Shown: positions 299-23,667 of the stretch, in pieces
Position numbering within the stretch: position 1 is the stretch's first letter
Layout of the letters: every line of letters starts with the position of its first letter
Source of the DNA: a virus
DNA length: 23,675 nucleotides
Reading direction: 5' to 3' (one strand)
IMG/VR virus record: IMGVR_UViG_3300017782_000228
Span: 1-23,675 of that record
Notes under the pieces: generated by a model
What the model saw: only the letters and a program-made list of their open reading frames with translations
The model's database searches: none
What the model was told of the DNA's origin: nothing
Program-made: the position numbers and the translations under genes

Positions 299-1306
299 AT
301 GGCATCATTAGCAGAAATTCGTGCAAAACTGCAGGAAGCAAACAATCGCTCAACTGGTAATTCTACTGGAGGCGGTGACAACGCAATTTACCCACATTGG
401 AATATGCAAGAAGGCAGAGAAGCCGTGGTAAGATTCTTACCCGACGGTAACACTGACAACACATTCTTTTGGGTAGAACGTGCGATGATTAAATTACCAT
501 TCGCAGGTATTAAAGGTGAAACGGATAGTCGTAATACTATTGTGCAAGTTCCGTGTGTGGAAATGTACAATGACGGTACTACTTGTCCAATTCTATCTGA
601 AGTACGTGGTTGGTTTAAAGACAAATCACTAGAAGATATGGGTCGTAAGTATTGGAAAAAACGTTCATATATCTTCCAAGGGTTTGTAAACGACGATCCT
701 CTTAACGAAGAGAGAACACCAGAAAATCCTATTCGTAGGTTTATTATTGGTCCACAGATTTATCAAATCATTAAAGGTGCTTTGATGGATCCGGAGTTGG
801 AAGAGTTACCAACTGATTTCCTTCGTGGTGTTGACTTTAGAATCAAGAAAACATCAAAAGGTGGTTATGCTGACTACTCAACATCACAATGGTCACGTAA
901 AGAGCGTGCATTGGCTGAGAATGAGAACGCAGCAGTTGAACAACACGGTTTGTTTAACTTATCAGACTTCCTTCCTAAGAAGCCAGGCGAAGTTGAGCTT
1001 AAGGTTATGAAGGAAATGTTTGAAGCATCTGTAGATGGTGAAGCATATGATGCAGATCGTTGGGGACAATATTTCCGTCCAGCGGGTATGCAACAGCGTA
1101 CAGGAGATCCGAATAAGGCACCACAAACGCCAGCGGCATCAGCACCTGTAACTGCTCCGACTGCTCCGGCAGCACCAGTAGCAACTGCTCCAGTAGTAGA
1201 AGCAACTGCGGCTCCAGCGGCAGCACCAGAAACAGTAACTACTGAAGACAATGGATCGGGTCGTGCGCAAGACATCCTTGCAATGATTCGCAACCGTCAG
1301 CAATAA
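299..1306 (+). CDS. 32: Single-stranded DNA-binding protein gp32
   Basis: This protein coats and protects single-stranded DNA during phage replication and recombination and contacts UvsX, UvsY and the polymerase and primase machinery. The 335 residues show the gp32 layout. The basic N-terminal segment (1-20) fits the cooperativity domain. The OB-fold core includes the stretches YWKKRSYIFQGFV, ENPIRRFIIGP and LMDPE, typical of marine T4-like gp32. An Ala/Pro-rich linker covers roughly 265-315, and the tail ends AQDILAMIRNRQQ. The T4 zinc site has three Cys and one His; here C86 and C96 are seen and the second Cys of T4's CPxC is replaced (CPIL), so zinc binding may be altered or lost. The tail is much less acidic than T4's. 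The start is fixed by AAAGGAGG seven bases upstream. It is the first gene after a sigma70 promoter and is followed by uvsX. Confidence 0.93.
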   Translation: MASLAEIRAKLQEANNRSTGNSTGGGDNAIYPHWNMQEGREAVVRFLPDGNTDNTFFWVERAMIKLPFAGIKGETDSRNTIVQVPCVEMYNDGTTCPILSEVRGWFKDKSLEDMGRKYWKKRSYIFQGFVNDDPLNEERTPENPIRRFIIGPQIYQIIKGALMDPELEELPTDFLRGVDFRIKKTSKGGYADYSTSQWSRKERALAENENAAVEQHGLFNLSDFLPKKPGEVELKVMKEMFEASVDGEAYDADRWGQYFRPAGMQQRTGDPNKAPQTPAASAPVTAPTAPAAPVATAPVVEATAAPAAAPETVTTEDNGSGRAQDILAMIRNRQQ

Positions 1307-1389: not shown

Positions 1390-2469
1390 ATGGCAAAAGC
1401 GTTTGACGTAACTAAATTTAGAAAGAGTCTTACAAAGTCTATTGACGGGCTTGGTATTGGCTTTAATGATCCTACAGATTGGATCAGCACAGGCAACTAT
1501 GCACTTAACTATCTTGTAAGTGGCGACTTCCACAAAGGTGTTCCACTAGGCAAGGTAACTGTATTAGCAGGAGAATCGGGTGCAGGTAAATCATATATTG
1601 CTGCCGGTAATATTGTAAAATCGGCACAAGAACAAGGTATCTTTGTAGTACTAATTGACACAGAGAATGCCTTAGATGAGAAATGGCTACACGCATTAGA
1701 TGTAGACACATCTCCAGAAAAGATTCTTAAACTTAATATGTCAATGATTGATGATGTTGCTAAAACAATATCAGAGTTTATGAAAGAATACAGAGATATG
1801 GCAGAAGAAGAACGCCCTAAAGTATTGTTCGTAATTGACTCACTTGGTATGTTACTAACACCTACAGATGTTGATCAGTTTAATAAAGGTGATATGAAAG
1901 GTGATATGGGTCGTAAGCCTAAAGCACTAACATCACTTGTACGTAATACTGTTAATATGATTGGTAGTTATAACGTAGGTATGGTATGTACTAATCACAC
2001 ATATGCATCACAAGATATGTTTGATCCAGATGACAAGATTAGTGGTGGACAAGGCTTTATCTATGCATCAAGTATTGTTGTTGCTATGCGTAAACTTAAA
2101 CTAAAAGTAGACGCAGATGGTAATAAGACTACTACAGTACAAGGTATTCGTGCTGCGTGTAAAGTTATGAAAACACGTTATGCAAAGCCGTTTGAAGCAG
2201 TACAAGTACAGATTCCATATGAAACAGGAATGGATCCATACAGTGGCTGTGTTGACTTGTTTGAAGCAAAAGGTTTGCTGAAGAAAGATGGTAATCGACT
2301 TAAATATACAGACTTAAATGGGGAGGTCCATTTAGAGTATCGTAAAAACTGGACTGGCGATAAACTAAACTTAATTATGGAAGAGCTTGGTAAAGAGCCA
2401 GAGACTGTAGAAGTAGAGGAACCAGTCGAAGTCGAGTTAGAGGAACCAGTAACAAGCAACGGAGAATAA
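1390..2469 (+). CDS. uvsX: UvsX recombinase (RecA/Rad51 family)
   Basis: UvsX is the phage strand-exchange ATPase that forms filaments on single-stranded DNA for recombination-dependent replication and repair. The 359 residues carry Walker A GESGAGKS (61-68) and a Walker B strand ending VLFVID (about 145-150). A loop region TNHTYASQDMFDPDDKISGG (201-220) resembles the DNA-binding L2 region. The length is close to T4 UvsX (about 390). The C-terminal 25 residues are a run of Glu/Val/Pro (EEPVEVE-like), an acidic tail. The start is supported by AAAGGAAAGG upstream of ATG. It sits between gp32 and the uvsY candidate, the order expected of a recombination operon. Confidence 0.95.
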   Translation: MAKAFDVTKFRKSLTKSIDGLGIGFNDPTDWISTGNYALNYLVSGDFHKGVPLGKVTVLAGESGAGKSYIAAGNIVKSAQEQGIFVVLIDTENALDEKWLHALDVDTSPEKILKLNMSMIDDVAKTISEFMKEYRDMAEEERPKVLFVIDSLGMLLTPTDVDQFNKGDMKGDMGRKPKALTSLVRNTVNMIGSYNVGMVCTNHTYASQDMFDPDDKISGGQGFIYASSIVVAMRKLKLKVDADGNKTTTVQGIRAACKVMKTRYAKPFEAVQVQIPYETGMDPYSGCVDLFEAKGLLKKDGNRLKYTDLNGEVHLEYRKNWTGDKLNLIMEELGKEPETVEVEEPVEVELEEPVTSNGE

Positions 2470-2714: not shown

Positions 2715-3173
2715 ATGACAAATTGGTATGATCTAGTTTCGAAAGACATCAGCAAGATACCAGACGCTGTTGATTATTTCAATACGGAACTAATATCTGC
2801 AAAAGCAGAAATTAAAATTACTGGACGGATCGAGAAAGCATCAGCACACTTGCCTGCTTCCGTAGAAACTAGATTCAGCCAACTTCAAGAAATTGAAGCG
2901 ATACTTGAATATCTTAATATTGAACTTCGTAGATTACGATCTTCACACTTTAGAAAATACGTTGAAAACTATCAAAGACAATTAAGTTCACGTGATGCAG
3001 AGAAATTTGTAGACGGTGAAGCAGACGTAGTTGACTTTGAAAAAATTATTAACGAATTTGCTCTTATACGAAATAAGTGGTTAGGGATTATTAAAGGACT
3101 TGATCAGAAACAGTGGCAATTGACTAACATTGTTAAGTTAAGAACTGCTGGACTTGATGATGCTACTTTGTAA
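2715..3173 (+). CDS. uvsY: UvsY-like recombination mediator
   Basis: UvsY helps UvsX displace gp32 from single-stranded DNA. The 152 residues compare with T4 UvsY's 137 and are mostly charged and helical, with no membrane segment or catalytic motif. The middle (IEAILEYLNIELRRLRSSHF) and the DAEKFVDGEADVVDFEKIIN region parallel the UvsY layout. The C-terminus (WQLTNIVKLRTAG) resembles the end of T4 UvsY, which closes with a short amphipathic helix and a charged tail. Position just downstream of uvsX supports the call. Identity is by layout and context rather than a diagnostic motif. The last 11 bases overlap the convergent kinase gene. Confidence 0.6.
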   Translation: MTNWYDLVSKDISKIPDAVDYFNTELISAKAEIKITGRIEKASAHLPASVETRFSQLQEIEAILEYLNIELRRLRSSHFRKYVENYQRQLSSRDAEKFVDGEADVVDFEKIINEFALIRNKWLGIIKGLDQKQWQLTNIVKLRTAGLDDATL

Positions 3174-3537: not shown

Positions 3538-3554
3538 TATGTCCTCCTTGTTTC

Positions 3555-10636: not shown

Positions 10637-10655
10637 TGGCTAATTTACTTTAATA

Positions 10656-10709
10656 TATTTAAGTAATTTGTCCATTCTGCACAAAATTATTGGCTACTGT
10701 ACTTAAATA
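10656..10709. promoter_or_regulatory. Divergent promoter candidate: inverted TACTTAAATA pair
   Basis: The 79-base divergent gap contains a perfect 10-base inverted repeat: TATTTAAGTA (10656-10665) and TACTTAAATA (10700-10709). Each strand thus carries TACTTAAATA ahead of its own gene, 19 bases before the minus ATG and 6 bases before the plus ATG. The core (TTAAATA) is two changes from the T4 late element TATAAATA, and no -35 hexamer is evident. A late-type bidirectional promoter is the likeliest reading. Confidence 0.45.
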
Positions 10710-10715
10710 CTACTG

Positions 10716-11576
10716 ATGCGTTTTAAGTTATATAGACAACACGGTGCGTTAAACAGTCCTAGTATTTTTGATGCATTTCAGACAGGACTAATAGCACAAG
10801 GACACAAAGTCGTAAATGACAACGAAGATGTTGCTGTCATTTGGTCAGTATTGTGGAACGGCCGTATGTCTGCTAACCAACAAATTTATGAAAAATGTCG
10901 GAAAGATAACAAGCCTATAATTATTATTGAAGTAGGCAACTTAAAAAGAAATACAACTTGGCGCATATGTCTTAATCATATTAATGGATTAGGAGAGTTT
11001 GGTAGTGACGCCGACTTAGATGTAAACAGACCTAAAAAATTAGGTTTACAAATGTCGCCACCTAATACAAATAGACGTAACGAAATCCTTATTGCAACAC
11101 AACATCATAAAAGTTTGCAATGGCAAGGAATGCCGTCAATGGCTGAATGGACATTACAAACTATAGAAAAAATTAAAAAATATACAGATCGTCCTATTGT
11201 TATTAGGCCGCATCCAAGGTCACCTATGTCTGGCATCGAACACGAATTTACAAATGTAAAAAGACAACAACCTGTAAAATTATCTGGAACATACGACAAC
11301 TTTGATATCGATTATAACTATCACGCTGTTGTTAATCATAATAGTGGACCTCCTATACTTGCTGCTATTGCAGGCACTCCAGTAATTACAGGCGACAGCA
11401 GTCTTGCATATCCTGTTAGTGATACTATAGAAAACATTGACAATCCTAAACTTCCTGATGATAGACTTTTATGGTTTACAAAACTTACGCATTGTGAATG
11501 GACTGTTGACGAAATAAAACAAGGCACTCCGATAAAAAGATTAGAAAAGTTTATAAAAATGCAAGTAAGTTATTGA
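10716..11576 (+). CDS. Putative GT-B-like glycosyltransferase, paralogue E
   Basis: 286 aa, the fifth copy, separated from the others by the minus-strand pair. It pairs with D: WQGMPSMAEWTLQTI (136-150), KKYTDRPIVIRPHPRSP (154-170), NHNSGPPILAAIAGTPVIT (207-225), and a C-terminal CEWTVDEIKQGTP. The conserved R-x-HP and the NS-rich loop with 'GTPV' match capsule-type transferases. The N-terminal half starts FKLYRQHGALNSPSIF and includes a strand DVAVIWSVLW, consistent with a first Rossmann domain. No Shine-Dalgarno is visible; a TTAAATA element ends six bases before the ATG. It is a single-gene unit followed by a separate sigma70 promoter. Confidence 0.7.
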   Translation: MRFKLYRQHGALNSPSIFDAFQTGLIAQGHKVVNDNEDVAVIWSVLWNGRMSANQQIYEKCRKDNKPIIIIEVGNLKRNTTWRICLNHINGLGEFGSDADLDVNRPKKLGLQMSPPNTNRRNEILIATQHHKSLQWQGMPSMAEWTLQTIEKIKKYTDRPIVIRPHPRSPMSGIEHEFTNVKRQQPVKLSGTYDNFDIDYNYHAVVNHNSGPPILAAIAGTPVITGDSSLAYPVSDTIENIDNPKLPDDRLLWFTKLTHCEWTVDEIKQGTPIKRLEKFIKMQVSY

Positions 11577-11601
11577 CTTCTTAAGTTATAGACTTTATAA
11601 T
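11566..11601 (+). promoter_or_regulatory. Sigma70-type promoter with tandem operator-like repeat (uvsW operon)
   Basis: TTGACT (11573-11578), 17 bases, then TATAAT (11596-11601). A 14-base direct repeat with one mismatch, TAAGTTAT(T/A)GACTT, occurs at 11566-11579 and 11582-11595. One copy covers the -35 and the other fills the spacer up to the -10, with a 16-base period. The -35 lies inside the last codons of paralogue E. The -10 ends six bases before the ATG at 11608. Confidence 0.7.
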
Positions 11602-11607
11602 AAACTT

Positions 11608-12783
11608 ATGACACATTTAACTTACATAGAAGATCTATTCCTCAAGGTTATGGACATTATGGACCAGAACCTATTAGGTATGCAACATCACGATCAGTCT
11701 GCTGCTAGAAGTTTTTATAACAGTATTAGTGCAGGAAAAGATTTAACTGAAAAACAAGGTGCATATATTTTAAAGATTATTTACAAATATAGAAATAGTG
11801 TAAGGCCGTTTATCGAGGTTGAACCTTATCTAGATCATCCTCTGTGGAGTAAACCCTTTAGAGTTGTTGACCTAGCAAAAGAAGTGTGGGTAGAACAAGA
11901 TACTATCAAGACACCATTGATATGTCTTAAATTTCCATACAGTCTAAAAGATGACTTTGAAAATGTGTTCAGACCAAAGATTGAAAAAGGTCATTACTGG
12001 AACGCTGATAGACGTATTAGACAAATTAATCTTTACAAAGCAAATGTTGTAGAGATAGAAGAATGGTGTGTGAATAACGAATTTACTATTGACGATACAT
12101 TTACAAGTTGCGTTGACCAAATAGAAGAAATATGGCAAGAGCGTTCTACATACGAACCACATAGTATTGTAGACGAAGGCGAAGTACAACTTGTAAATTG
12201 TAGCGAAGATACAGAAACATACTTTCTTAAAAAGTCAAATGGTAATATTGTTAATGATATGTTCCTTGCAAAAAGTATGGGATATCCGCTTCTTAATCCT
12301 GATAGATCTCTTGCACAACAAATAAGCAGTAACCGAGATAACACGTTTTGGATAAAAAATGTAGATGAGTTTTTAGAGTTAGGATATCAAGTAAACGGTC
12401 AAATTGTTATACTATTAGATAGAGCAGCAGATGCATTAGACTATATGAAAGAGTTAAAAAACACAATAGATTACTACAAATATAACACAAATGACTTTAG
12501 AGTTTGCTTTAGAACCAATAACAAAGACAATCCAGAATTTAATGTTTGGGTACGTGATAACAAGTTTGGAGGAAAAATAGATGGTGCAAAGTTTCTAATC
12601 TTCCAACATAAGCCACCTAAGTGGTTGTTCAAACAGAAGAATGATGTTATAATAGTGGCTACTAATAACTTAATGCCTTCTACGTATGGCTTGACTAGAG
12701 ATATGTTAGAGTCAAGTCCTATTGTATTTTACGTAGGAGAAATTGAACCAAGTAAAGGACGAAAGAAGATTGTCGAACTGTAA
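11608..12783 (+). CDS. Unknown protein upstream of uvsW (391 aa)
   Basis: This soluble 391-residue protein has no P-loop or other catalytic motif that I recognise. The N-terminal quarter includes LTEKQGAYILKIIYKYRNSV. The middle, HYWNADRRIRQINLYKANVVEIEEWC, resembles the small substrate-recognition segments that precede helicase cores. The C-terminal half has alternating strands (GQIVILLDRAADALDYMKEL, FRVCFRTNN, DVIIVATNNL). Its 3' end overlaps uvsW by 14 bases, so the two are translationally coupled and probably work together in DNA branch processing (inference). No Shine-Dalgarno precedes ATG 11608, and the promoter's -10 ends six bases upstream, so the mRNA may be leaderless. An internal ATG at 11650 with a weak AAGG is the alternative start. 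A degenerate helicase-related fold is possible but unproven. Confidence 0.78.
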   Translation: MTHLTYIEDLFLKVMDIMDQNLLGMQHHDQSAARSFYNSISAGKDLTEKQGAYILKIIYKYRNSVRPFIEVEPYLDHPLWSKPFRVVDLAKEVWVEQDTIKTPLICLKFPYSLKDDFENVFRPKIEKGHYWNADRRIRQINLYKANVVEIEEWCVNNEFTIDDTFTSCVDQIEEIWQERSTYEPHSIVDEGEVQLVNCSEDTETYFLKKSNGNIVNDMFLAKSMGYPLLNPDRSLAQQISSNRDNTFWIKNVDEFLELGYQVNGQIVILLDRAADALDYMKELKNTIDYYKYNTNDFRVCFRTNNKDNPEFNVWVRDNKFGGKIDGAKFLIFQHKPPKWLFKQKNDVIIVATNNLMPSTYGLTRDMLESSPIVFYVGEIEPSKGRKKIVEL

Positions 12784-14227
12784 GTTAATTATTAAAGATG
12801 AAGTAAACGTAAAGTTTGAAGGACTTGCCGTTGAAACACGAAGAAAAATTGTAAACAAACTAAAGTTTGATTTGCCGTATGCTCGTCATATGCCTGCATT
12901 TAAACTAGGTAGATGGGACGGCACTGTAAGTTTCTTTGGTATTGGCGGTAACGGATATCTTGCACACTTAGACGTTGCACTGCCAATTGTTGAGAATGAC
13001 GGATATGATATTGAAGTAGTTGATCAACGTGTTGCACCTAATCTTGAGTTTGATAAAATTACAGAAAACTACTGGGCTGATCAAGGAAAGACTTGGCCTA
13101 AAGGACATCCTGAAGAAGGCACGCCTATTGTGCTACGTGACTATCAGTATGATGTAGTAAACAAGTTTTTAGAAAATCCACAGGCACTACAAGAAGTTGC
13201 AACAGGCGCAGGTAAAACAATCACCACAGCAACACTAAGTCATTTATGTGAACCATACGGTCGTACAATGATTATTGTTCCTAACAAAAGTCTTGTTGTA
13301 CAAACTGAAGAAGACTATGTTAACTTAGGTTTAGATGTTGGTGTATACTTTGGTGATAGAAAAGAATTAAACAGAACACACACTATTTGTACGTGGCAAA
13401 GTTTAAACGTACTAGATAAGAAAAGTAAAGACTACGAAGCAGTACTAACACTTGCAGAATTTATTGAAGGTGTAAGTGCAATTATAATTGACGAAGTGCA
13501 TCAAGCAAAAGCAGATGTACTTAAAAAATTACTTACAGTAAACTTCCGTAATGCTCCTATACGTTGGGGACTTACAGGCACAGTGCCTAAAGAAAAGTGG
13601 GAGTTTCAAGGCATACTTGCAGGTATTGGTCCTGTAATTAATAACGTATCAGCGCACGACTTGCAAGAAAGAGGCGTGTTAGCAAACCTCGATATACAAA
13701 TTTTACAAAGTAAAGATATCGAAACCTTTAGAAACTATGCCGAAGAATATACTTGGCTAGTAACTGATAACAACCGTTTAGATTGGATTAGTGATCATAT
13801 CAATAAGATTATCAAAGACGGAAATACACTTATACTTGTTAATAGAATTGACACTGGTAAAAAACTACTAGAGAGATTACCTGATGCTACATTTATCAGA
13901 GGAGATGTAAAACTTGATGATAGAAAAGAGCAATATGATGAAATTAAAACAAGCGATGGTAAAATTATTATCGCTACTTACGGCGTTGCCGCAGTGGGTA
14001 TTAATATTCCTCGTATTTTTAACCTTGTTCTTATTGAGCCTGGTAAGTCTTTCATACGTGTTATTCAGTCAATTGGCAGAGGCATACGAAAAGCAGAGGA
14101 CAAGGATTTTGTCCAGATTTGGGATATGACTTCAAGTTGTAAGTACGCAAAGAGACACCTAACAGAAAGAAAAAGATTCTACCGTGAAGCAAAGTATCCT
14201 CACAGCGTCACGAAAGTAGATATTTAA
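12770..14227 (+). CDS. uvsW: UvsW superfamily 2 DNA/RNA helicase
   Basis: UvsW unwinds branched DNA and R-loops and helps the switch from origin- to recombination-dependent replication. From TTG 12770 it has 485 residues, close to T4 UvsW (about 500). The N-terminal domain contains FKLGRWDG, matching the small DNA-recognition domain of T4 UvsW. Helicase motifs follow: RDYQ, Walker A ATGAGKT (144-150), DEVH (241-244), WGLTGT (266-271) and the late QSIGRGIR arginine-finger motif. A further TTG lies at 12743 in frame, but the product would start with residues unlike the family; TTG 12770 starts just before the conserved CKLIIKDE with AAAGGA upstream. It overlaps the preceding gene by 14 bases and is followed by an AAGGAG-led gene. 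Confidence 0.92.
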   Translation: MSNCKLIIKDEVNVKFEGLAVETRRKIVNKLKFDLPYARHMPAFKLGRWDGTVSFFGIGGNGYLAHLDVALPIVENDGYDIEVVDQRVAPNLEFDKITENYWADQGKTWPKGHPEEGTPIVLRDYQYDVVNKFLENPQALQEVATGAGKTITTATLSHLCEPYGRTMIIVPNKSLVVQTEEDYVNLGLDVGVYFGDRKELNRTHTICTWQSLNVLDKKSKDYEAVLTLAEFIEGVSAIIIDEVHQAKADVLKKLLTVNFRNAPIRWGLTGTVPKEKWEFQGILAGIGPVINNVSAHDLQERGVLANLDIQILQSKDIETFRNYAEEYTWLVTDNNRLDWISDHINKIIKDGNTLILVNRIDTGKKLLERLPDATFIRGDVKLDDRKEQYDEIKTSDGKIIIATYGVAAVGINIPRIFNLVLIEPGKSFIRVIQSIGRGIRKAEDKDFVQIWDMTSSCKYAKRHLTERKRFYREAKYPHSVTKVDI

Positions 14228-14781: not shown

Positions 14782-15141
14782 ATGACTATGAAAGCAGGAA
14801 AGATTTGGGGTCAGACAGAATTGATCCACGCAAACGGTGTGCTAGAATTTCATCGTATCGAATACAAAAAAGGTTTCAAATGTTCGGAACACGAACATCA
14901 ATATAAGTGGAATGGCTTTTTTGTAGAGTCGGGTAAGATGATTGTCCGTGTGTGGCAAGACGCTGATCAAGCAGGTCTTGTTGATGAAACTATCTTAGGG
15001 CCAGGCGAGTTTACACAAGTTAAGCCAGGCAAGATACATCAATTTGAAGGTGTTGAAGATGGTGTTGCATTTGAATTGTATTGGGCAGAGTTCAATCACG
15101 ATGATATTGTAAGACGTACAGTTGGCACAAAAATCAAATGA
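14782..15141 (+). CDS. Single-domain cupin, sugar-phosphate isomerase-like
   Basis: 119 aa with one cupin barrel. Motif 1 is HEHQYKWNGFFVESGKM (HEH at about 36-38, the metal-binding His pair), and motif 2 is PGEFTQVKPGKIHQF (second His site). Cupins of this size act as sugar-nucleotide isomerases, epimerases or dTDP/GDP-sugar modifying enzymes, or as carbohydrate sensors. It heads the second glycan operon, behind AAGGAAGG before ATG, and ends in ATGA with the FkbM gene. It differs from the fused cupin at 3596 in having no RxHxxRAEH block. The substrate may be the GDP-deoxysugar made by the dehydratase in the same operon (inference). Confidence 0.82.
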   Translation: MTMKAGKIWGQTELIHANGVLEFHRIEYKKGFKCSEHEHQYKWNGFFVESGKMIVRVWQDADQAGLVDETILGPGEFTQVKPGKIHQFEGVEDGVAFELYWAEFNHDDIVRRTVGTKIK

Positions 15142-15794
15142 CCAATCCGACCATTGAAGGATTACAGAAGTTAAAACAGTACATTCCGCAAGATAATATT
15201 AAGTGTCTTGACGTTGGTGCTAATATCGGACAATGGGTCAATGCAATTAGAGAAGTATATTCCGCACCTGATATTTTTAGTATCGAAGTAAATCCTCACT
15301 GCGAAGGTCGCCTTGCTAGTAAGCAAGTAAAATATAAAATTATAGGACTATCTGATAAAGTTGGGCAGATGGAACTAAAAACATTTGCAACGAAACCTAG
15401 ATCGAAAGGTGCAAGTTTTTATACACAATCTGATTGGCGTGACAAGGAAATTATGAAATTTGAAGTTCCAGTGTCAACACTAGATGTATTGTTTCCAGAA
15501 CAAACATTTGATATACTTAAGATTGATGTACAAGGTGCAGAGCTAGATGTTATTAATGGCGGCATTGAATTCTTAAAAAGACATCAGTATGTCCTTGCTG
15601 AAGTTGCTCTAACAGATTATAATAGCGGTGCACCGCAAGCAAGTGTTGTAGTTGCTAGACTTCAAGAACTTGGTTTCTACGTTGTAGATTGTTTAGAAGA
15701 ACATTTGTACGGCGATAAAATTATACAGATTGATTTGCTTTTTAGTTCTAAAGAAACAAAACACAATAAGAAAGTTTTAGGAAAATATGTATGA
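15138..15794 (+). CDS. FkbM-family SAM-dependent methyltransferase, second copy
   Basis: 218 aa with SAM motif I CLDVGANIGQW (23-33), strand 2 acidic residue IFSIEVNPHCEG, and FkbM late motifs TFDILKIDVQGAELDVINGG and VLAEVAL. It keeps the family order of the 8649 gene but shares only the family motifs, so the two are old duplicates or separate acquisitions. ATGA-type overlap at both ends couples it to the cupin and the following GT-A-like gene. The likely role is O-methylation of a sugar in the glycan built by this operon, by context. Confidence 0.88.
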   Translation: MTNPTIEGLQKLKQYIPQDNIKCLDVGANIGQWVNAIREVYSAPDIFSIEVNPHCEGRLASKQVKYKIIGLSDKVGQMELKTFATKPRSKGASFYTQSDWRDKEIMKFEVPVSTLDVLFPEQTFDILKIDVQGAELDVINGGIEFLKRHQYVLAEVALTDYNSGAPQASVVVARLQELGFYVVDCLEEHLYGDKIIQIDLLFSSKETKHNKKVLGKYV

Positions 15795-16492
15795 TAGGAA
15801 TTGTAACTACATTTAGTGATGCAAACTTTAGTGAGTATGCACATCAATTTATTAATAGTGCAAGGCAATATGTACATCACGACATTAAAATGTATCTATA
15901 TGTTGATAATGCAAGACCAGAACTTGCAAAGAATATGCAAACACTAGGACTAGAAGAATCTAATCCGCAACTAACACAGTTTAAACAAAGACACAAAGAT
16001 AAAGACGAATCAAATTTTATGTACGGAGGCAAACGCTTTGCACATAAAAGTTATGCAATCTGTCACGCAGCATTAAATAGTGATGTAGAAAAACTGTTTT
16101 GGTTTGATGCAGATACTGTATTTCAACAAGCAATTACACCTGAATATCTTAACAAGTTTTTACCTAATGGCACATTCACTTGCTATTTAGGCAGACCTGG
16201 TAGATATACTGAAACAGGATTTATCGGATATAACTTAAAAGATCCTGCCTGTGTAGAGTTTATGGAAACGTATATTAGTTACTACAACGAAGATAAAATT
16301 TATGATTTACCGTTTCAAACTGATTGCCACGTATACGATGCAACCAGAGAACAAATGGTAGCACAAAATAAAATTAAAGCAACTGACCTTACACCAGGGA
16401 TGGGTAAAAGTAATTTTAACTTTATTCATAAAGGCTTTGCAGTACATAACAAAGGTGAACATAAACTTGGTAAAACCAAGAGGAAAAAATGA
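15791..16492 (+). CDS. GT-A-like glycosyltransferase, copy 2
   Basis: 233 aa. It is clearly related to the minus-strand copy at 9393: both start with a short VTTF strand, share RFAHK(S/A)Y, the DxD block WFDADT (DAD 106-108), and LGRPGRYTETGFIGYNL after it. It lacks copy 1's Arg-rich insert and part of its C-terminus. The DxD implies a metal-dependent nucleotide-sugar transferase. It directly follows an FkbM gene, repeating the FkbM/GT-A neighbourhood at 8649-10238. Start ATGA and end ATGA overlaps show tight coupling. The donor may be the GDP-deoxysugar of the next gene (inference). Confidence 0.78.
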   Translation: MIGIVTTFSDANFSEYAHQFINSARQYVHHDIKMYLYVDNARPELAKNMQTLGLEESNPQLTQFKQRHKDKDESNFMYGGKRFAHKSYAICHAALNSDVEKLFWFDADTVFQQAITPEYLNKFLPNGTFTCYLGRPGRYTETGFIGYNLKDPACVEFMETYISYYNEDKIYDLPFQTDCHVYDATREQMVAQNKIKATDLTPGMGKSNFNFIHKGFAVHNKGEHKLGKTKRKK

Positions 16493-17466
16493 TGAGTAAA
16501 ACAGCGTTTATTACAGGAATGACAGGACAAGATGGTCCTTATCTTGCTAAATTTTTATTAGAAAAAGATTACAAAGTCTATGGACTTGTAAAAAGATATA
16601 GCAATCCTAATTTTGATAATATGGATTTTTTAGGTGTAACTGATAAAATTGAATTAATTACAGGTGATATTACAGACGAAAACTGTATGAATCATCTTAT
16701 GAAATCACTAAAACCAAATGAAGTTTATAACCTTGCAGCACAAAGTTTTGTTGGTGCAAGTTGGGATCTTAATAAACTAACTACTGAAGTTAATTCAATA
16801 GGTCCATTAAATATTTTAAACGCTATTAAGAACAACACGCCCGATACACGTTATTACCAAGCAAGTACAAGTGAACTATACGGCAATGCTAATACAGAAG
16901 GTTTACAAGACGAAGACACACCATTCAAACCTAGATCACCTTATGGTGTAAGCAAACTATATGCATACTGGATGACTGTTAATTTTAGAGAAAGTTATAG
17001 TTTACACGCATCTAACGGTATCCTGTTTAATCACGAATCACCTATTAGAGGTATTGAATTTGTAACACGCAAGATTACTGACGGTGTTGCTAAAATTAAA
17101 CTAGGACTTGCTAAAGATATTACATTAGGTAATTTGAAAGCAAAACGTGATTGGGGATTTGCTGGAGACTACGTTGAAGCAATGTGGGCAATGGTACAAA
17201 AAGATGAACCAGGCGACTATGTTATTGCAACTGGTAAAGAATACAGTATCGGCGATGTATTAGATATTGCTTTTCAACACGTAGGTATTAATGACTATCT
17301 AAGTTTAGTTAAAAGCGATCCTAGATTCAAACGTCCAGCAGAGTTACACGCATTACGTGGTAATCCGCAAAAAGCAATAGATGAACTAGATTGGAATCCA
17401 CAAAAAACTACATTCGAACAAATGATTAAAGATATGGTAGATGCCGATTTAGAAAGGTTATCGTAA
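16489..17466 (+). CDS. gmd: GDP-mannose 4,6-dehydratase
   Basis: Gmd converts GDP-D-mannose to GDP-4-keto-6-deoxymannose, the entry to GDP-fucose, rhamnose, perosamine and related sugars. The 325 residues have the NAD(P) loop TGMTGQDG (9-16), NLAAQSFVGAS (81-91) and STSELYG with T127/E129. The catalytic pair is Tyr152-x3-Lys156 in SPYGVSK. The GDP-binding segment FNHESPIRG follows, differing by one residue from the usual NHESPRRG. The length is slightly below the usual 340-370. No partner reductase (fcl), perosamine synthase or epimerase is recognised in the window, so the keto-sugar must be finished by host enzymes, another phage gene, or one of the unassigned proteins. It lies mid-operon, overlapping both neighbours. 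Confidence 0.94.
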   Translation: MMSKTAFITGMTGQDGPYLAKFLLEKDYKVYGLVKRYSNPNFDNMDFLGVTDKIELITGDITDENCMNHLMKSLKPNEVYNLAAQSFVGASWDLNKLTTEVNSIGPLNILNAIKNNTPDTRYYQASTSELYGNANTEGLQDEDTPFKPRSPYGVSKLYAYWMTVNFRESYSLHASNGILFNHESPIRGIEFVTRKITDGVAKIKLGLAKDITLGNLKAKRDWGFAGDYVEAMWAMVQKDEPGDYVIATGKEYSIGDVLDIAFQHVGINDYLSLVKSDPRFKRPAELHALRGNPQKAIDELDWNPQKTTFEQMIKDMVDADLERLS

Positions 17467-18200
17467 TGCAATTTCCATATCACTACGGTGTAAAAAATCT
17501 TGAACCATTACCTTACGAACGCTTAGGATTTGCACAGCACGGCGAAACAGGCATTATCGAAACAATGACTGATGCTATTAAAAACAAAACTAAAACTTTT
17601 TTTGAAATTGGTTTTAGTAGCGGTGCAATGAATATGACTAGAGATTTGTTTACTAAAGACTGGAGTGGTGTTGGAGTTGATATGTTTGACAAGCCGTCAG
17701 ATAAACTAGGCCCGTTACCACAAGTTAAGTATATCAAATGTAAAGCAGAACCAGATAACTTAATAGACATACTACAAGAAGTTGACATACAAGTTGACTT
17801 TTTTAGTTTAGACATTGACAGTTACGATTACGATATAGCCAACAAACTATTATCGTTAGGCTGGCAACCAAAGACAGTTTGTTTAGAGTTCAATCCTAAG
17901 TTTGGTCCAACTGCTCACGCAAGTTTTCCTTTTGCTGTTGGAAAGAAACTGTTTAACAAAAAAGGTTTATATGGTTCTAGTTTAGCAAAGTATATTGATT
18001 TATGGACATCACACGGATACAAGTACTTCGGATTTGACAGCACACTTACTAACGTATTCTTTTATCATCCAGACACTGTAAATGATCTGAGTAGTTTAAA
18101 AATATATCAACCTCAAGATCTTCCGTTTGCAAACGATGAAATTATGCGTACTATGATCAAGATGCATTCTGTTTGGGAAATTGGAGATATTTGGAAGTAA
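17466..18200 (+). CDS. FkbM-like methyltransferase-fold protein, third
   Basis: 244 aa with FFEIGFSSGAMNM (45-57) in the place of SAM motif I, DWSGVGVDMFDKP for strand 2, and DFFSLDIDSYDYDI in the FkbM late-motif place, then VCLEFNPKFGP. The glycine loop (EIGFSSGA) is looser than the usual DVGANxG, so it may bind SAM differently or use another cofactor. It closes the second glycan operon, joined to gmd by TAATG. It may methylate the same glycan; loss of activity is possible. The C-terminus (DEIMRTMIKMHSVW) has no known match. Confidence 0.72.
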   Translation: MQFPYHYGVKNLEPLPYERLGFAQHGETGIIETMTDAIKNKTKTFFEIGFSSGAMNMTRDLFTKDWSGVGVDMFDKPSDKLGPLPQVKYIKCKAEPDNLIDILQEVDIQVDFFSLDIDSYDYDIANKLLSLGWQPKTVCLEFNPKFGPTAHASFPFAVGKKLFNKKGLYGSSLAKYIDLWTSHGYKYFGFDSTLTNVFFYHPDTVNDLSSLKIYQPQDLPFANDEIMRTMIKMHSVWEIGDIWK

Positions 18201-18202
18201 AT

Positions 18203-18237
18203 TAAAGATTGACATACAGTCAATTCTTTAGTATAAT
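18203..18237 (+). promoter_or_regulatory. Consensus sigma70 promoter overlapped by a dyad
   Basis: Perfect TTGACA (18209-18214) and TATAAT (18232-18237) at 17-base spacing, with expected start near 18244 and an AGGAG RBS before ATG 18270. A dyad of TAAAGATTGAC (18203-18213) with GTCAATTCTTTA (18219-18230, one bulged T, loop ATACA) covers the -35 and spacer. It could be a repressor operator. As RNA from the upstream operon it could also form a hairpin, but no U-run follows, so it is not a clean terminator. Confidence 0.85.
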
Positions 18238-18269
18238 GTATATACTACAAACAAACAGGAGTAGAACGT

Positions 18270-18467
18270 ATGCTTCATAAGATAAGCCAATTTTGCGATA
18301 AAATAGACGGAATCAAAAAAGATGCTGATAGACTCCGTGAAATCAAATACAATAATCCAAAGACAAATCATCGTGATCATATGATCCAAGGACTAATCGA
18401 ACAGATACAATCCGATTGTTACATAGTTAGTCAAGACAAGCAGGACTATAATAAAACGGAGGACTAG
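18270..18467 (+). CDS. Small basic/charged protein, unknown
   Basis: 65 aa, first gene after the consensus promoter, with AGGAG upstream. It is helical and Lys/Asp/Gln-rich (ISQFCDKIDGIKKDADRLRE), with no Cys pattern or membrane segment. Its strong promoter suggests early expression and a host-directed or regulatory role, as for many small early phage proteins (inference). No family is recognised. One base separates its stop from the next start. Confidence 0.72.
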   Translation: MLHKISQFCDKIDGIKKDADRLREIKYNNPKTNHRDHMIQGLIEQIQSDCYIVSQDKQDYNKTED

Positions 18468-18468
18468 A

Positions 18469-19017
18469 TTGATAAGTCAAGACTATAAGAAAGTTCTAAC
18501 AGACATTCACGCAAAAACCAAGTTTGGTAAAAGACGTAAACTGCCTTCGATGTTAGAAGATTACATTACAGAAAAGAATCCTAAAAGTATTTTGGATTTT
18601 GGATGTGGTAAAGGCAATCTGGTAGAAACTCTTAAAGAAAAATATCCACACAGAGAAATACTTGGATTTGATCCTGCTAATCCTAAATATGATATGTCGT
18701 TATGTAAAGTTGATATGATTATATCAACAGACGTACTAGAACACATTGAACCAAACTTACTTGCTGATACACTGCTTGAAATAAAAGCACATAGCAAATA
18801 CATATTCCATCTTATTAGTTGTGCGCCTGCAAAACTTATTTTGCCTGATGGACGTAATGCACACTTAATACAAGAAACACCGGAATGGTGGAAACAACAG
18901 TTTGCTAATCTTGGATATACTGTAACAAAAGAACATTACACTGAATTATCTAAATATTCAAAACAACTCAAAAGAAAACTTCCTGTAAAAAATTATTACA
19001 TAATGGCACAACAATAA
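18469..19017 (+). CDS. Class I SAM-dependent methyltransferase
   Basis: 182 aa. SAM motif I is ILDFGCGKGN (41-50), strand 2 ILGFDPANP, motif II-like DMIISTDVLEHIEP and a post-motif YIFHLIS, the pattern of small-molecule methyltransferases (Methyltransf_23-like). The start is TTG 18469, fixed by GGAGG six bases upstream; an ATG at the same place is absent. The target is unknown: a sugar, a lipid or another small molecule. It is separate from the FkbM family of the glycan operons by its G-C-G-x-G loop and DVLEH motif. Confidence 0.84.
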   Translation: MISQDYKKVLTDIHAKTKFGKRRKLPSMLEDYITEKNPKSILDFGCGKGNLVETLKEKYPHREILGFDPANPKYDMSLCKVDMIISTDVLEHIEPNLLADTLLEIKAHSKYIFHLISCAPAKLILPDGRNAHLIQETPEWWKQQFANLGYTVTKEHYTELSKYSKQLKRKLPVKNYYIMAQQ

Positions 19018-19249: not shown

Positions 19250-19712
19250 ACAGCCTGGACTAAAACTAAATGAGATTTTAGGAGCCGTTGATTTGAACGG
19301 TAAAGAAGTATGGGATGATCTTACAGAAGAGCAACGTAAGAGTGTCGTATTCTTCACGCTTAACCACTATATAAGCAGCGTACAAGGGTCTCGAGAAGAT
19401 ATGGAGCACTTTGTACTACTAGGAAATGAACGCTTTAATAAGCACCTTTTCCTGCTGTTAAACAAGCATAACAAACTGCTTTGGCAACTTGCTTGTAGTT
19501 GCGGACACGAATCCAAAAAAGTATTTTTCCATAAATGGTTGAAACTTACAAAAACTAAAAACAAGAAAGAAGAGTTTTTAGGTACACTATTTCCGAATAT
19601 GAAAACAGCAGACATACGTACAATGGCAGCAATTACTAGTGATAAAGAAGTTAAAGAATACTGTAAAGAACTAGGTTGGGATAAGAAACAGATCAATGCA
19701 ATTAAGTTATAA
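19242..19712 (+). CDS. Unknown helical protein; possible gp62-like clamp-loader subunit
   Basis: 156 aa, all-helical by composition. The run from VVFFTLNHYISSV through GNERFNKHLFLL to a Trp-containing basic helix (HKWLKLTKTKNKK), with the ending KEYCKELGWDKKQINAIK, recalls the order of marine T4-like gp62. In that protein a short helix, 'MN-x-hydrophobic' and 'R-x2-F-x-W-x-K' precede a C-terminal helix. gp62 is the small subunit that holds the gp44 ATPase and loads the sliding clamp. gp44, gp45 and regA, the usual neighbours, are not in the window, so the call is weak. It overlaps the zinc-finger gene by 17 bases. Confidence 0.7.
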   Translation: MSKQPGLKLNEILGAVDLNGKEVWDDLTEEQRKSVVFFTLNHYISSVQGSREDMEHFVLLGNERFNKHLFLLLNKHNKLLWQLACSCGHESKKVFFHKWLKLTKTKNKKEEFLGTLFPNMKTADIRTMAAITSDKEVKEYCKELGWDKKQINAIKL

Positions 19713-20379
19713 GTGCGAGTATTGTGGTAAATCATTTGCTAAAGAAAAAACTTTGGCAGTGCATATCTGCGAGCAAAAGCGTAGACATCTAAGTAAGAAT
19801 GAAAAGCACGTACAACTTGCATTGCTAACGTATCAGCGTTTTTATGAAATAGCACAAGGCGGAAAAAAGAAAAGAGAATTTGAAGACTTTGCAAAAAGTC
19901 CTTACTATAATGCGTTTGTAAAATTTGGTAGTTTCGTATCAAATGTAAATCCGTTGATGCCTGATAGGTTTGTTGAGTATGTTGTACGCAGTGGTGTAAA
20001 ACTTGACCATTGGTGTAGAGATGAATTATATGACAAGTATCTAGCAGAACTTGTTAGAATTGAGCCAGCCGAAAGTGCAATCACACGTAGTTGTAGTACA
20101 ATGGTAGAATGGGCTAATGAAAATGATGCAGACTGGAATCATTATTTTAGTTATGTAAATTTGAACAGAGCAACACACGATATTAAAGAAGGAAGAATTA
20201 GTCCTTGGATATTGTTAAACTGCAAAGCAGGTAAAGATATGTTGCAGAATATGAATGACGAACAGTTAGCAATTGTATCACCGATAATTGATCCTAAGTT
20301 TTGGATGAAGAAATTTAAGACATTACCAGCAGACGTAGAACTAGTTAGAGAAGTAGTACGAGAAGGCAAAGTAACGTGA
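19696..20379 (+). CDS. Zinc-finger protein of unknown function
   Basis: 227 aa. The N-terminus has a C2H2/C2HC-type finger: C7-x2-C10 (KCEYCGKSF), then H23 and C25 or H31 as the second pair. The rest is mixed alpha with Trp/Tyr-rich segments (HWCRDELYDKYL, WNHYFSYVNLNRATHDI, SPWILLNC) and no catalytic motif I know. The finger points to nucleic-acid or protein binding. It starts inside the previous gene (17-base overlap) and ends in GTGA with the next small gene. Replication or transcription control would fit the context, but this is not shown. Confidence 0.78.
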   Translation: MQLSYKCEYCGKSFAKEKTLAVHICEQKRRHLSKNEKHVQLALLTYQRFYEIAQGGKKKREFEDFAKSPYYNAFVKFGSFVSNVNPLMPDRFVEYVVRSGVKLDHWCRDELYDKYLAELVRIEPAESAITRSCSTMVEWANENDADWNHYFSYVNLNRATHDIKEGRISPWILLNCKAGKDMLQNMNDEQLAIVSPIIDPKFWMKKFKTLPADVELVREVVREGKVT

Positions 20380-20555
20380 ACACAAGAAAACTTAAAGACG
20401 GAACGGAAGTACAAGAACTTGACAAAAGTATACAATTAAGTATACTAACTAAGTGTCCTGGTAAATGGAAAATAGTTGATATGGAAACAGGACAAGAGTA
20501 TGTTGCTAGTGGCGACTATGAAATGTACAAACAATGGAAAGAAATTAAAAACTAA
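20376..20555 (+). CDS. Small protein (59 aa), GTG start
   Basis: A compact open frame fills the space between the zinc-finger gene and the DnaE-like gene: GTG at 20376-20378 overlaps the previous TGA (GTGA), and TAA at 20553-20555 overlaps the next ATG (TAATG). The product begins MNTRKLKDGTEV and contains CPGKWKIVDMETGQEYVA, ending YKQWKEIKN. The two-sided start/stop overlap and protein-like composition argue that it is real and translationally coupled. No family is recognised; the beta-strand-like middle suggests a small nucleic-acid or protein-binding domain. Confidence 0.72.
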   Translation: MNTRKLKDGTEVQELDKSIQLSILTKCPGKWKIVDMETGQEYVASGDYEMYKQWKEIKN

Positions 20556-21133
20556 TGCCAGATATTGATATAGACTTTAAGGATCGAGAGAAAGCACTTG
20601 CGTTATTCAAGCACGTAAGAGCAAGTCGTATTGATGATGGCGAACTAACAAAGCATAACACTGGCGTATATATGCACGAGGTTCCGACAGATCCAAGTAA
20701 ATACATATGTTCAATAGAACACAAAGAAGCAGAAGAACAAGGTCTATTCAAGATAGATTTTTTAAATGTTTCCTTGTATAATGATATTAAAAACGAAGAA
20801 CATCTAGTCAAACTTACAGAAAAGGAACCGTTATGGGAATTACTCACCGAGCCAGACTTCAGCAACAAATTATTTCACGTAGGAGAACACAGTGGAGTTC
20901 TCAAAACAATGAAACCACAAACAGTGGAACAGTTAGCAGCAGTACTGGCAATGATACGCCCAGCGAAGAGACATCTGATTGGACAGCCGTGGGATACGGT
21001 GATGAGTCAAGTGTGGACGAAGCCAACTAACGGTGAATACTACTTTAAAAAATCACACGCAACAGCATATGCAGTTGCAGTTGTTGTTAATATGAATTTA
21101 ATATGTGAGCAATATAATGAATTGGGAAGTTGA
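20555..21133 (+). CDS. Miniature C-family DNA polymerase (DnaE)-like protein
   Basis: 192 aa collinear with the active-site blocks of bacterial DNA polymerase III alpha (about 1,160 aa). It starts at MPDIDIDF (DnaE MPDFDVDF: catalytic Asp pair, here D3 and D5). HNTGVYMHEVP is in place of the KHAGGVVIAP block, and GLFKIDFLNV matches GLVKFDFLGL with the third catalytic Asp at D68. EHSGVLKTMKP and EQLAAVLAMIRP match the RGM/LFRPGP region, and FKKSHATAYAV matches FNKSHSAAYAL. All intervening fingers, PHP, OB and beta-clamp regions are missing. The three acids are kept, so it is not simply a dead remnant. T4-like phages replicate with a B-family polymerase, so the job here may be repair, terminal synthesis, or interference with host DnaE. 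The start codon coincides with motif I. Confidence 0.78.
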   Translation: MPDIDIDFKDREKALALFKHVRASRIDDGELTKHNTGVYMHEVPTDPSKYICSIEHKEAEEQGLFKIDFLNVSLYNDIKNEEHLVKLTEKEPLWELLTEPDFSNKLFHVGEHSGVLKTMKPQTVEQLAAVLAMIRPAKRHLIGQPWDTVMSQVWTKPTNGEYYFKKSHATAYAVAVVVNMNLICEQYNELGS

Positions 21134-21356
21134 AGACTACAGAAAAAAAGAGCCCAAGCCTGACTTAGGTAGTTGGCCTTTTTGGACAGTGCCTGCTTGG
21201 TACGTGCCGTTATACTTGTTGCGAGTGATATTCTGGGTATTTGTGTTGCCTTGGGCATTCGGACAAACACTTACAGCTCTTGGAACACTAGTAACTTTTT
21301 GTTTAATTGATTATTGGATTTACTGGTCTATGAAGAAGGCTTACGGACAAGAGTAA
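21117..21356 (+). CDS. Small inner-membrane protein, two predicted TM segments
   Basis: 79 aa from ATG 21117 (or 83 from GTG 21105; neither has a strong Shine-Dalgarno). A charged N-terminus (EVEDYRKKEPKPDLG) precedes a Trp/Pro-rich turn and two hydrophobic stretches, about residues 28-47 (YVPLYLLRVIFWVFVLPWAF) and 52-70. A short basic tail follows. The aromatic-rich layout suggests a cytoplasmic membrane protein, perhaps acting in host envelope takeover or exclusion (inference). It overlaps the DnaE-like gene by 17 bases and the convergent gene tail to tail by 29 bases. Confidence 0.72.
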   Translation: MNWEVEDYRKKEPKPDLGSWPFWTVPAWYVPLYLLRVIFWVFVLPWAFGQTLTALGTLVTFCLIDYWIYWSMKKAYGQE

Positions 21357-21702
21357 TTGATCTACGCTTGATACGTTTTATAATAATATTATTTAAACTT
21401 GTAACAGGACCAAATTGAATCGTAACATCTTTTGTAGTATAGTTCCGTATAGCATACCTGTATTGTGCAATTTCACTCTTAAGAAATATGTTAATAGGAA
21501 TTTGTCTGTTTGATTCCCACCACCAAGCATCACCAAGCTCTAAGAAGTGTTTCTTTGCTTCATCACCCTCGATTAACTCGTAGTCATAGAAGCTCGTGAC
21601 ACTATTGTCTTGGTTTATAATGATGCCTACATATTCTTTGTCTGCGTGTGTTAAAACGCTGATAAATGGCATATTTTCTTTTAAGTTTTCTGTTATTCTC
21701 AT
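21328..21702 (-). CDS. Unknown protein (124 aa), minus strand
   Basis: From ATG 21702 the product is 124 aa, starting MRITENLKENMPFISVL. A TTG 39 bases upstream would extend it by 13 residues without a visible RBS. It has LGDAWWWESNRQIPINIFLK in the middle and a basic C-terminus (NNIIIKRIKRRSITLVRK). Soluble beta-rich proteins of this kind are scattered in marine T4-like phages, but I assign no family. Its start faces the structural gene across a 120-base gap. No Shine-Dalgarno precedes it; TATATT lies five bases upstream. Confidence 0.72.
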   Translation of the reverse strand: MRITENLKENMPFISVLTHADKEYVGIIINQDNSVTSFYDYELIEGDEAKKHFLELGDAWWWESNRQIPINIFLKSEIAQYRYAIRNYTTKDVTIQFGPVTSLNNIIIKRIKRRSITLVRKPSS

Positions 21703-21703
21703 C

Positions 21704-21711
21704 GATAAATA
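21704..21711 (+). promoter_or_regulatory. Late-promoter-like GATAAATA before the structural gene
   Basis: GATAAATA matches the T4 late element TATAAATA at seven of eight positions, with the predicted start near 21717 and a leader of about 105 bases to ATG 21823. A structural gene is expected to be late. The 120-base gap has no convincing sigma70 hexamer pair. Confidence 0.4.
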
Positions 21712-21822
21712 TAGTAAAGGTTTAGTAATCACATTATGCAATTAACTACAATATATTTATACCCAAACGTAGTCCAGGCCTATACAGAAATGGCTAGTGC
21801 TTACACACAGGAGAGATTTAGT

Positions 21823-22635
21823 ATGGTCTATAGCCGCGCAATAAAAATTTATCGAGCAACCGATAATAGAATAGATCTTCAAGTTAAAAAAGGAGATCAA
21901 AAGAAAATTAATTTAACAGGATCCACGGTAGTGTTTTCGTTAGTGAGCAGAGAGGACAGCGAACTTGTTCTTAAGAAAGATGCAACTGCTGACGATGCTG
22001 CACTAGGAAGATTTTATGTCATTCTTACTGAAGAAGAAATGCGTGATATAGAACCCGGACAGTATTCATACAGTTTTATCAAAGAAACTAGAGAAGAAGT
22101 TACGACAGGACAACATAAAGTTACTTCTTCATATCCGTTGTACTTAGATAGTCAGTACGGTGCTGAAGGAACAATAGAAGTAAATGGCGATGTATACGGA
22201 GAACCATACGACACTATTGAAGTTATTACGTTTAATAAAACTGTTAACTTCGACAAAACAACAACTAGTCGAGATGACGATCCACCGTTCGAAACTCCAA
22301 GACCTAACTATGCTAGACATACTCCGATTAGCGGCTATGAAGAGTTTTTTGAAAGCAGCATTATTGATGCACAAGGTAATCAATCAACACCATCAAGTCT
22401 ACACACTTTCCAAGTGTATGCAGATTCATACGAAGGCGAACTTAAATTGCAAGCAAGTTTAGACCCAGGTGCAGTACCAATTGATGAAAATTGGATAGAC
22501 ATAAAAACTTGGAATCTAACAGCAGCAGATGGTAATTTTTACCATAATGTAACTGGAAAGTACAATTGGTTTAGATTTAAGCACATAACAGCAGATAATA
22601 ACACAGGAACAGTTGACAAAATACTGTATAGATAG
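21823..22635 (+). CDS. Phage structural protein, baseplate/fibre (BppU-like N-terminus)
   Basis: 270 aa from ATG 21823, which has AGGAGAG seven bases upstream; an ATG at 21736 in frame lacks an RBS. The N-terminal 95 residues (IKIYRATDNRIDLQVKKGD, INLTGSTVVFSLV, and EEEMRDIEPGQYSYSF) read like the BppU/DUF2479 domain of baseplate upper proteins, a beta domain that begins virion adsorption proteins. The C-terminus (SSLHTFQVYADSYEG, KLQASLDPGAVP, WIDIKTW, WFRFKHITADN) resembles a discoidin-like beta sandwich often used for carbohydrate contact. A role in host binding or fibre attachment is likely. The start chosen removes 29 residues of unlikely sequence. It is followed by the primase promoter inside its last codons. 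Confidence 0.72.
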   Translation: MVYSRAIKIYRATDNRIDLQVKKGDQKKINLTGSTVVFSLVSREDSELVLKKDATADDAALGRFYVILTEEEMRDIEPGQYSYSFIKETREEVTTGQHKVTSSYPLYLDSQYGAEGTIEVNGDVYGEPYDTIEVITFNKTVNFDKTTTSRDDDPPFETPRPNYARHTPISGYEEFFESSIIDAQGNQSTPSSLHTFQVYADSYEGELKLQASLDPGAVPIDENWIDIKTWNLTAADGNFYHNVTGKYNWFRFKHITADNNTGTVDKILYR

Positions 22636-22649
22636 TATACTAACAGTAT
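22613..22649 (+). promoter_or_regulatory. Sigma70-type promoter of the primase gene, with palindromes
   Basis: TTGACA (22613-22618) and TATACT (22636-22641) at 17-base spacing, the -35 lying inside the structural gene. The -10 is inside the perfect palindrome TAGTATACTA (22633-22642). ATACTGT (22621-22627) and ACAGTAT (22643-22649) form an outer inverted repeat that includes the start codon. The -10 ends six bases before ATG 22648. The nested dyads could be an operator. Confidence 0.7.
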
Positions 22650-23667
22650 GACACTTGTACTTGACAAATTCAGAGATCTATTGCCACCTCGTGCTAAACA
22701 TAGCCCTAGTGGGTGGACATCTTTCAATGCTCCTTGCTGTCATCATCGCGGACATAGCACTGACAAGCGTAAGCGTGGCGGCGTAAGATTTGATACAGGG
22801 TTTGTATACAATTGTTTCAACTGTAAGTATAGTGCAAGTTGGCAACCTGGTAGACAAGTTAGCGAAAAGTTAAAATCATTATGCAGATGGTTAGGTGCTA
22901 GTGAAAATGATATCAATACACTGATATTCGAAGCACTAAAAACAGAAAGTGCTGAGTACAAACCTAGAGAACTACAAACAAGAGTTTCATTTGCAAAAAA
23001 AGAATTACCCGAACACAGTTTGCCTATAAGCGATTGGCTAGATGTAGATTTTGCAAGCGACAATGAACTTGAAACTAGTTTTGCAAAAGTAGTTGAATAC
23101 ATTTATGATAGAGGCTTTGATCCATTAAGCAATAATTTTTATTGGTCACCATCTACAGGATATGTAGACAGAACTATTATTCCTTTTTACTATAAAGGAA
23201 CAATTGTAGGTAATACTGCACGTAAAGTACGCAGTGGTCGTCCTAAGTATCTAAGTGATCATCATTCACAGTTTGTATTCAATGTTGATGCACAACAAGA
23301 GGATCAGCGTTATATATTTGTTACAGAAGGTCCGTTTGATGCTATGGCAATCAACGGTGTTGCATTACTTACAAACAATATTAGTGACCAACAGTATAGA
23401 ATAATACAAGGATTAGGACACGAGATTATTGTTATTCCTGATCAAGATGAAGCAGGTGAGAACTTAATTAAGAAAGCAATGGAGTATGGTTGGAGTGTTG
23501 CTTTTCCTAACTGGGAACCAGATGTAAAGGATGTTGCTGACGCTGTACAGCGTTATGGCAAGTTGTTTGTTACTGTTGATGCTATTAAGACAGCACAATC
23601 AGGCAGTATCAAGATAAGTGTTGCTAAGAAGCACTTTATGAATAAAATAAAAGAGGAAGTATTATAA
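22648..23667 (+). CDS. 61: DNA primase gp61
   Basis: gp61 makes RNA primers for lagging-strand synthesis together with helicase gp41. The 339 residues match T4 gp61 (342). The N-terminal zinc-binding region has C30-C31-H32-H33 and CFNC (C56, C59). The Toprim domain follows with FVTEGPFDAMA (E227 in motif I) and the metal-binding PDQDEAGEN (264-272). A later ARKVRSGRPKYL segment before it is the basic primer-template region. No Shine-Dalgarno is present, and the promoter -10 ends six bases before the ATG, so the mRNA may be leaderless. Its stop overlaps the next start (TAATG). Confidence 0.92.
   Translation: MTLVLDKFRDLLPPRAKHSPSGWTSFNAPCCHHRGHSTDKRKRGGVRFDTGFVYNCFNCKYSASWQPGRQVSEKLKSLCRWLGASENDINTLIFEALKTESAEYKPRELQTRVSFAKKELPEHSLPISDWLDVDFASDNELETSFAKVVEYIYDRGFDPLSNNFYWSPSTGYVDRTIIPFYYKGTIVGNTARKVRSGRPKYLSDHHSQFVFNVDAQQEDQRYIFVTEGPFDAMAINGVALLTNNISDQQYRIIQGLGHEIIVIPDQDEAGENLIKKAMEYGWSVAFPNWEPDVKDVADAVQRYGKLFVTVDAIKTAQSGSIKISVAKKHFMNKIKEEVL

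Follow-up and report, generated by a model that had tools for sequence, protein, structure and literature searches.

The 192-aa protein encoded near the end of the window (the whole 23,675-nucleotide stretch of environmental virus DNA analysed here) belongs to the split minimal Pol III alpha family, which Iyer et al. (PMC7824862) described. It is the C-terminal half of that enzyme, and we refer to it as the C-half and to the product of the partner gene as the N-half. We consider it probable that the two proteins make up a minimal C-family polymerase that is accessory to a family-B replicase. The C-half ORF and its motifs are as follows.

20555..21133, + strand: C-half of the split Pol III alpha (PHROG_11778), with motif I, the D555 strand, the finger stub and FKKSH
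20558..20578, + strand: motif I, PDIDIDF; D3 at 20561-20563 (E. coli D401) and D5 at 20567-20569 (D403)
20744..20764, + strand: LFKIDF strand region; K66 (K553) and D68 (D555, codon 20756-20758)
20951..20962, + strand: MIRP finger motif; R135 (R639), invariant
21044..21076, + strand: FKKSHATAYAV block; H168 (H760), invariant

The translated ORF begins with MPDIDIDF, and its ATG overlaps the stop codon of a preceding 59-aa ORF. The top profile match of the protein was PHROG_11778, 'DNA polymerase' (E=2.8e-64), while the profiles of full-length phage DnaE proteins produced weak, collinear matches. The initial annotation had described the catalytic blocks of the protein as collinear with those of DnaE and had proposed a profile search against C-family polymerases; the ORF is real, and both the PHROG_11778 match and the alignment with E. 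coli DnaE agree with that description. The Pfam C-family models scored below their cut-offs, which may be the reason why the C-half is labelled 'hypothetical' or 'putative membrane protein' in many listed phage records, so that annotation often misses half of the enzyme. We also observed that in Atu_ph07 (NC_042013.1, 58304-58870) the annotated start of the C-half leaves out motif I, while the frame runs upstream through PDIDIDF.

Homologs of the C-half were found in at least 553 stretches of IMG/VR and in about 90 phage records. A scan of bacterial and archaeal species genomes gave three close homologs among the matches listed, all on metagenome-assembled contigs and probably of phage origin. 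Each of the 80 environmental homologs fetched was a separate ORF of 185-195 aa that began with motif I; therefore, the short form seen in the window is not a local truncation. With respect to three relatives the dN/dS of the C-half was 0.10-0.16, a value that indicates purifying selection and is comparable to those of the primase and virion genes nearby.

The three metal-binding aspartates had been correctly named in the initial annotation: in the alignment with E. coli DnaE, D3, D5 and D68 correspond to D401, D403 and D555, respectively, as K66 does to K553, H34 to H511, R135 to R639 and H168 to H760. An assignment of the catalytic pair to the second and third aspartates of PDxDxD was rejected, as the E. 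coli sequence points to the first and second (D401 and D403). When the aspartate columns were checked across homologs, as had been suggested, no variation was seen: D3, D5, D7, H34, K66 and D68 were invariant in 116 of 116 non-redundant homologs, some of the environmental ones having been retrieved with search words that covered motif I or adjoining blocks, while D68, K66, H34 and R135 lay outside all words of both virus scans. R135 was kept in 115 of 115 and H168 in 114 of 114 homologs in which the position was present. Isolate matches from a word-free tblastn search also retained D3, D5 and D68 (121Q, Phosso, PA5oct, Atu_ph07, Vibrio 2.275, RAS14, XacN1, SCTP-2 and Slicko01).

The N-half (PHROG_11127; about 150-190 aa in most loci) holds the part of the palm that comes before the C-half, including the GRGS motif, and ends just short of motif I. 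A PF07733 search of whole C-half-bearing records revealed it in five isolates and in two contigs of environmental origin, each time as an additional short ORF; it passes the Pfam cut-off. The end of the N-half fell 35-43 residues past the start of GxGRGS in 80 of 80 fetched environmental loci. Since the N-half aligns to residues 320-392 of E. coli DnaE and the C-half begins at about residue 400, the two sequences appear as consecutive, non-overlapping pieces of one domain. The 192-aa protein does begin exactly at motif I, as claimed, and its being the C-terminal part of a split enzyme explains why. Among the fetched loci no fused or adjacent halves were found; the single locus matching both (L256) was a full-length bacterial DnaE. 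A split at a similar position may exist in further phage DnaE proteins, since those of two more phage families, PHROG_7513 and PHROG_13169 (about 460 aa), terminate a short way past the palm segment with GRGS.

The domain names used here are those of Pol III alpha, in which GRGS and R709/R710 are nucleotide-binding elements, with GRGS holding the triphosphate of the incoming nucleotide. The idea of the lone 192-aa protein as a working active site did not hold: it lacks the segment corresponding to E. coli G361-R362-G363-S364, which a gene of its own encoded in each of the 20 complete or near-complete C-half genomes tested. The catalytic acids and GRGS were invariant across both genes.

Seven concatenated pairs of N-half and C-half aligned end to end with E. 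coli DnaE, and 26 E. coli residues were identical in 7/7 pairs, among them R362, G363, S364, D401, D403, D405, H511, K553, D555, R639 and H760. The pairs lacked everything before about residue 318 (E. coli numbering), the thumb region (about 410 to 510) and everything beyond about residue 790, and the finger segment around 660-735 with R709/R710 was absent from every aligned pair. The PHP, clamp-binding, OB and tau-binding regions were absent as well. Judged by alignment, the pair thus amounts to a palm and a finger stub. With the thumb and the R709/R710 segment gone, a loss of templated synthesis is possible, and a pair without the PHP, thumb, clamp-binding, OB and tau-binding parts should be non-processive. 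Binding to the host clamp loader, one of the functions proposed earlier, would be unlikely to proceed as in DnaE, given that the pair has no clamp- or tau-binding region.

The AlphaFold model of the C-half, built from 50 homologs, had a mean pLDDT of 92.4. Its top 16 matches in the PDB were all bacterial Pol III alpha chains, nothing else scored well, and the best match was the Taq Pol III alpha-tau-DNA complex (E=1.3e-4). For the N-half model (pLDDT 92.2) the top 16 matches were all Pol III alpha or PolC. Both halves are therefore predicted to have the Pol III alpha palm/finger fold; for the C-half, this was the outcome of the comparison with the DnaE palm that had been proposed at the outset.

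A search with the N-half profile found the N-half in 20 of 20 complete or near-complete genomes holding the C-half, and none of these genomes had a C-half without it. The two genes were on the same strand in all 15 measured pairs, at distances of 11-224 kb. For example, they are 11 kb apart in Alishewanella phage Slicko01 (circular, 141 kb), while in the six environmental contigs with both halves the spacing was 163-187 kb in five and 55 kb in one. Among GenBank phages the record counts of the two halves (C-half/N-half) per host genus were nearly equal: Escherichia 34/34, Pseudomonas 11/11, Salmonella 8/8, Erwinia 8/8 and Klebsiella 11/10. The PF07733 search did not find the N-half in the 23.7-kb window, nor was it found in a near-identical 92-kb or an 87%-identical 132-kb relative of the window; this absence is uninformative because fragments of such length need not reach across 163-187 kb.

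The exonuclease domain of a family-B polymerase was present in 15 of 15 C-half genomes tested, and the polymerase domain itself was recovered from 8 of 13 searched records; the five without it were fragments. A family-B polymerase was not found in the window, which is a 23.7-kb fragment. Given that its relatives hold a separate family-B polymerase, the C-half is very unlikely to be the replicase. This coexistence agrees with the earlier suggestion of a separate function beside a B-family polymerase.

The genes surrounding the C-half in the window are listed below.

299..1306, + strand: T4 gp32-type ssDNA-binding protein (PHROG_1192, E=1.5e-65), in the conserved replication block
1390..2469, + strand: UvsX-like recombinase (PHROG_97, E=2.3e-69)
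2715..3173, + strand: UvsY-like recombination mediator (PHROG_231, E=6.3e-15)
12743..14227, + strand: UvsW-type helicase (PHROG_16, E=1.7e-76; ResIII)
19696..20379, + strand: conserved neighbour with a C2H2-like N-terminus (PHROG_11058, E=2.5e-64)
20376..20555, + strand: 59-aa ORF directly upstream of the C-half, its stop codon overlapping the C-half start
21328..21741, - strand: conserved convergent neighbour (PHROG_11637, E=4e-34)
21736..22635, + strand: virion structural protein-like (PHROG_14467)
22648..23667, + strand: Toprim primase (gp61/DnaG-like)

With SSB, UvsX, UvsY, UvsW and a Toprim primase present, the window fits the T4-like character ascribed to it. The order SSB, UvsX, UvsY, UvsW, small proteins, C-half, convergent ORF, virion protein, primase, helicase is common, as far as each stretch shows, to 121Q, Phosso, PA5oct, Atu_ph07, Vibrio 2.275 and the window, which ends at the primase; a small convergent ORF occupies the matching place in the five isolates. 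The N-half has a block of its own, made of the N-half, a small conserved protein and Cpn10, plus a gp44-type clamp loader in 121Q and PA5oct.

Several other features of this region were observed. The 59-aa ORF at 20376-20555 matches PHROG_4098 (559 residues) over just its final 54 positions. An 83-aa ORF with apparent membrane helices (21105-21356) overlaps the 3' end of the C-half by 29 bases, and RAS14 and XacN1 likewise have a small ORF at that end. Sugar-nucleotide, glycosyltransferase, cupin and methyltransferase genes lie within the replication block of the window, at 3163-11576 (between UvsY and UvsW) and at 14782-19017 (past UvsW). They include GT8, FkbM, GDP-mannose 4,6-dehydratase and heptose adenylyltransferase-like genes, accompanied by several similar ORFs without an assignment (4363, 5845, 6621, 7729 and 10716). 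In 121Q and Vibrio 2.275 (L083 2293-5120 and L087 2318-5233, compared with window 2715-12743) a DnaQ-like exonuclease gene is located between UvsY and UvsW. We detected none in the window or in environmental phages with both halves, and a DnaQ proofreading exonuclease was rejected as an obligate partner on account of this absence.

In the mechanism that we propose, the C-half would be the metal-binding, template-side half, and the N-half, made from elsewhere in the genome, would supply the GRGS palm segment. The two chains would rebuild one Pol-beta-type palm with a finger stub and an active site across the interface, to which the N-half would contribute GRGS and the C-half D3/D5/D68, K66, R135 and H168. 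We regard such assembly in trans as highly likely, and template-directed synthesis by the pair as somewhat favoured. The assembled enzyme would most likely be a second polymerase, accessory to the family-B replicase. Its likeliest tasks would be primer extension or the filling of short gaps during recombination-dependent replication, because the C-half neighbours SSB, UvsX, UvsY, UvsW, primase and helicase, and the N-half lies near Cpn10 and a clamp loader; we put forward this assignment of task tentatively. The complete proposal, in which a trans-assembled pair devoid of the thumb and of R709/R710 is an enzyme dedicated to primer extension or gap filling beside a family-B replicase, is a shade more doubtful still. 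If true, it would be a phage counterpart of the division of labour seen with eukaryotic Pol alpha and Bacillus DnaE. To our knowledge, the two-chain pair, if a polymerase, would be the smallest C-family polymerase known.

The same pattern of loss, in which the thumb and the R709/R710 segment are gone and the metal ligands and GRGS are kept, could also be produced by a pair that assembles into a Pol-beta-fold nucleotidyltransferase (end-adding without a template, or nucleotide-modifying) or an exonuclease instead of a templated polymerase. A passage in PMC9226535 describes prokaryotic X-family polymerases that have lost polymerase activity and act as exonucleases. We consider this reading unlikely, given that the MIRP and FKKSH finger motifs retain invariant residues and that the C-half gene sits in a replication block; the nuclease role raised by the initial annotation was not supported. 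Catalysis might be dispensed with altogether if the C-half imitated host DnaE, attaching to DNA or to replication proteins of the host and thereby commandeering or obstructing its replisome. Its small size and a fold matching the DnaE palm and fingers would suit such a mimic, but neither the catalytic acids nor GRGS varies in the two genes, the DnaE regions that bind the clamp, tau and other partners are missing, and the N-half is always co-retained (20/20 genomes), which makes mimicry quite improbable.

Marginally less probable again is a C-half active alone, with a separate job for the N-half. The distance of 11-224 kb between the genes and the confident folding of each half by itself speak for it; against it, the halves cover consecutive, non-overlapping pieces and each is without half of the active site. 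Finally, most of DnaE is gone, and the protein was called truncated in phage CBB (PMC5259590), as might be expected had a full-length dnaE of phage or host origin decayed to a remnant. The 80 environmental homologs share their length and start, dN/dS is about 0.1, like that of the neighbouring primase and virion genes, and the active-site residues do not vary. On these grounds a remnant, which the initial annotation had also argued against, is extremely improbable and was rejected. We retain the accessory two-protein polymerase as the preferred reading.

The closest known system is that of the 'group 2.2' jumbo phages, for which Iyer et al. 2021 (PMC7824862) described, from sequence, a minimal Pol III alpha split into N-terminal NTP-binding and C-terminal Mg/template-binding proteins, encoded at distant loci beside a family-B polymerase. 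The window has the same family (PHROG_11127 + PHROG_11778 in those phages) and the same synteny, but its virus is environmental, the 23.7-kb fragment does not give its full size, and a phage of 141 kb, too small to count as jumbo, has the pair too. Pol III subunits were also noted in Atu_ph07 (PMC6102473), and a literature search found no experimental work on either half. For the marine jumbo phages 'PGC_A', the account in PMC9123017 gives PF07733, the Pfam family of the N-half, as the sole group-unique gene in at least half of the members (51.9%); that account reports the Pfam domain without mention of the split enzyme or the C-half.

The phage pair shares with bacterial DnaE the palm catalytic residues, the finger motifs and the predicted fold. 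Conversely, bacterial DnaE has PHP, palm, thumb, fingers, clamp-binding and OB parts in one chain, whereas the pair is split at motif I and is without PHP, thumb, the 660-735 segment, and the clamp-binding, OB and tau-binding parts. The full-length DnaE of phage G and others (PHROG_405) is likewise a C-family polymerase, but the versions that bear a PHP domain are the phage's own replicase (PMC7824862), while the relatives of the C-half use a family-B enzyme instead. A Pol III-type site cut mid-way, whose parts are kept in genes far from each other in phages infecting many hosts, offers a natural test of a minimal replicative polymerase. It is also puzzling that a phage should retain a second polymerase when it already has a proofreading replicase. 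What is new with respect to PMC7824862 is the breadth of the split mini polymerase, far more widespread than the giant phages described in 2021, together with the exact cut point, the elements kept and lost (including the loss of the thumb and R709/R710), the invariant catalytic residues in both halves, the two conserved blocks of genes and the co-occurrence in 20/20 genomes.
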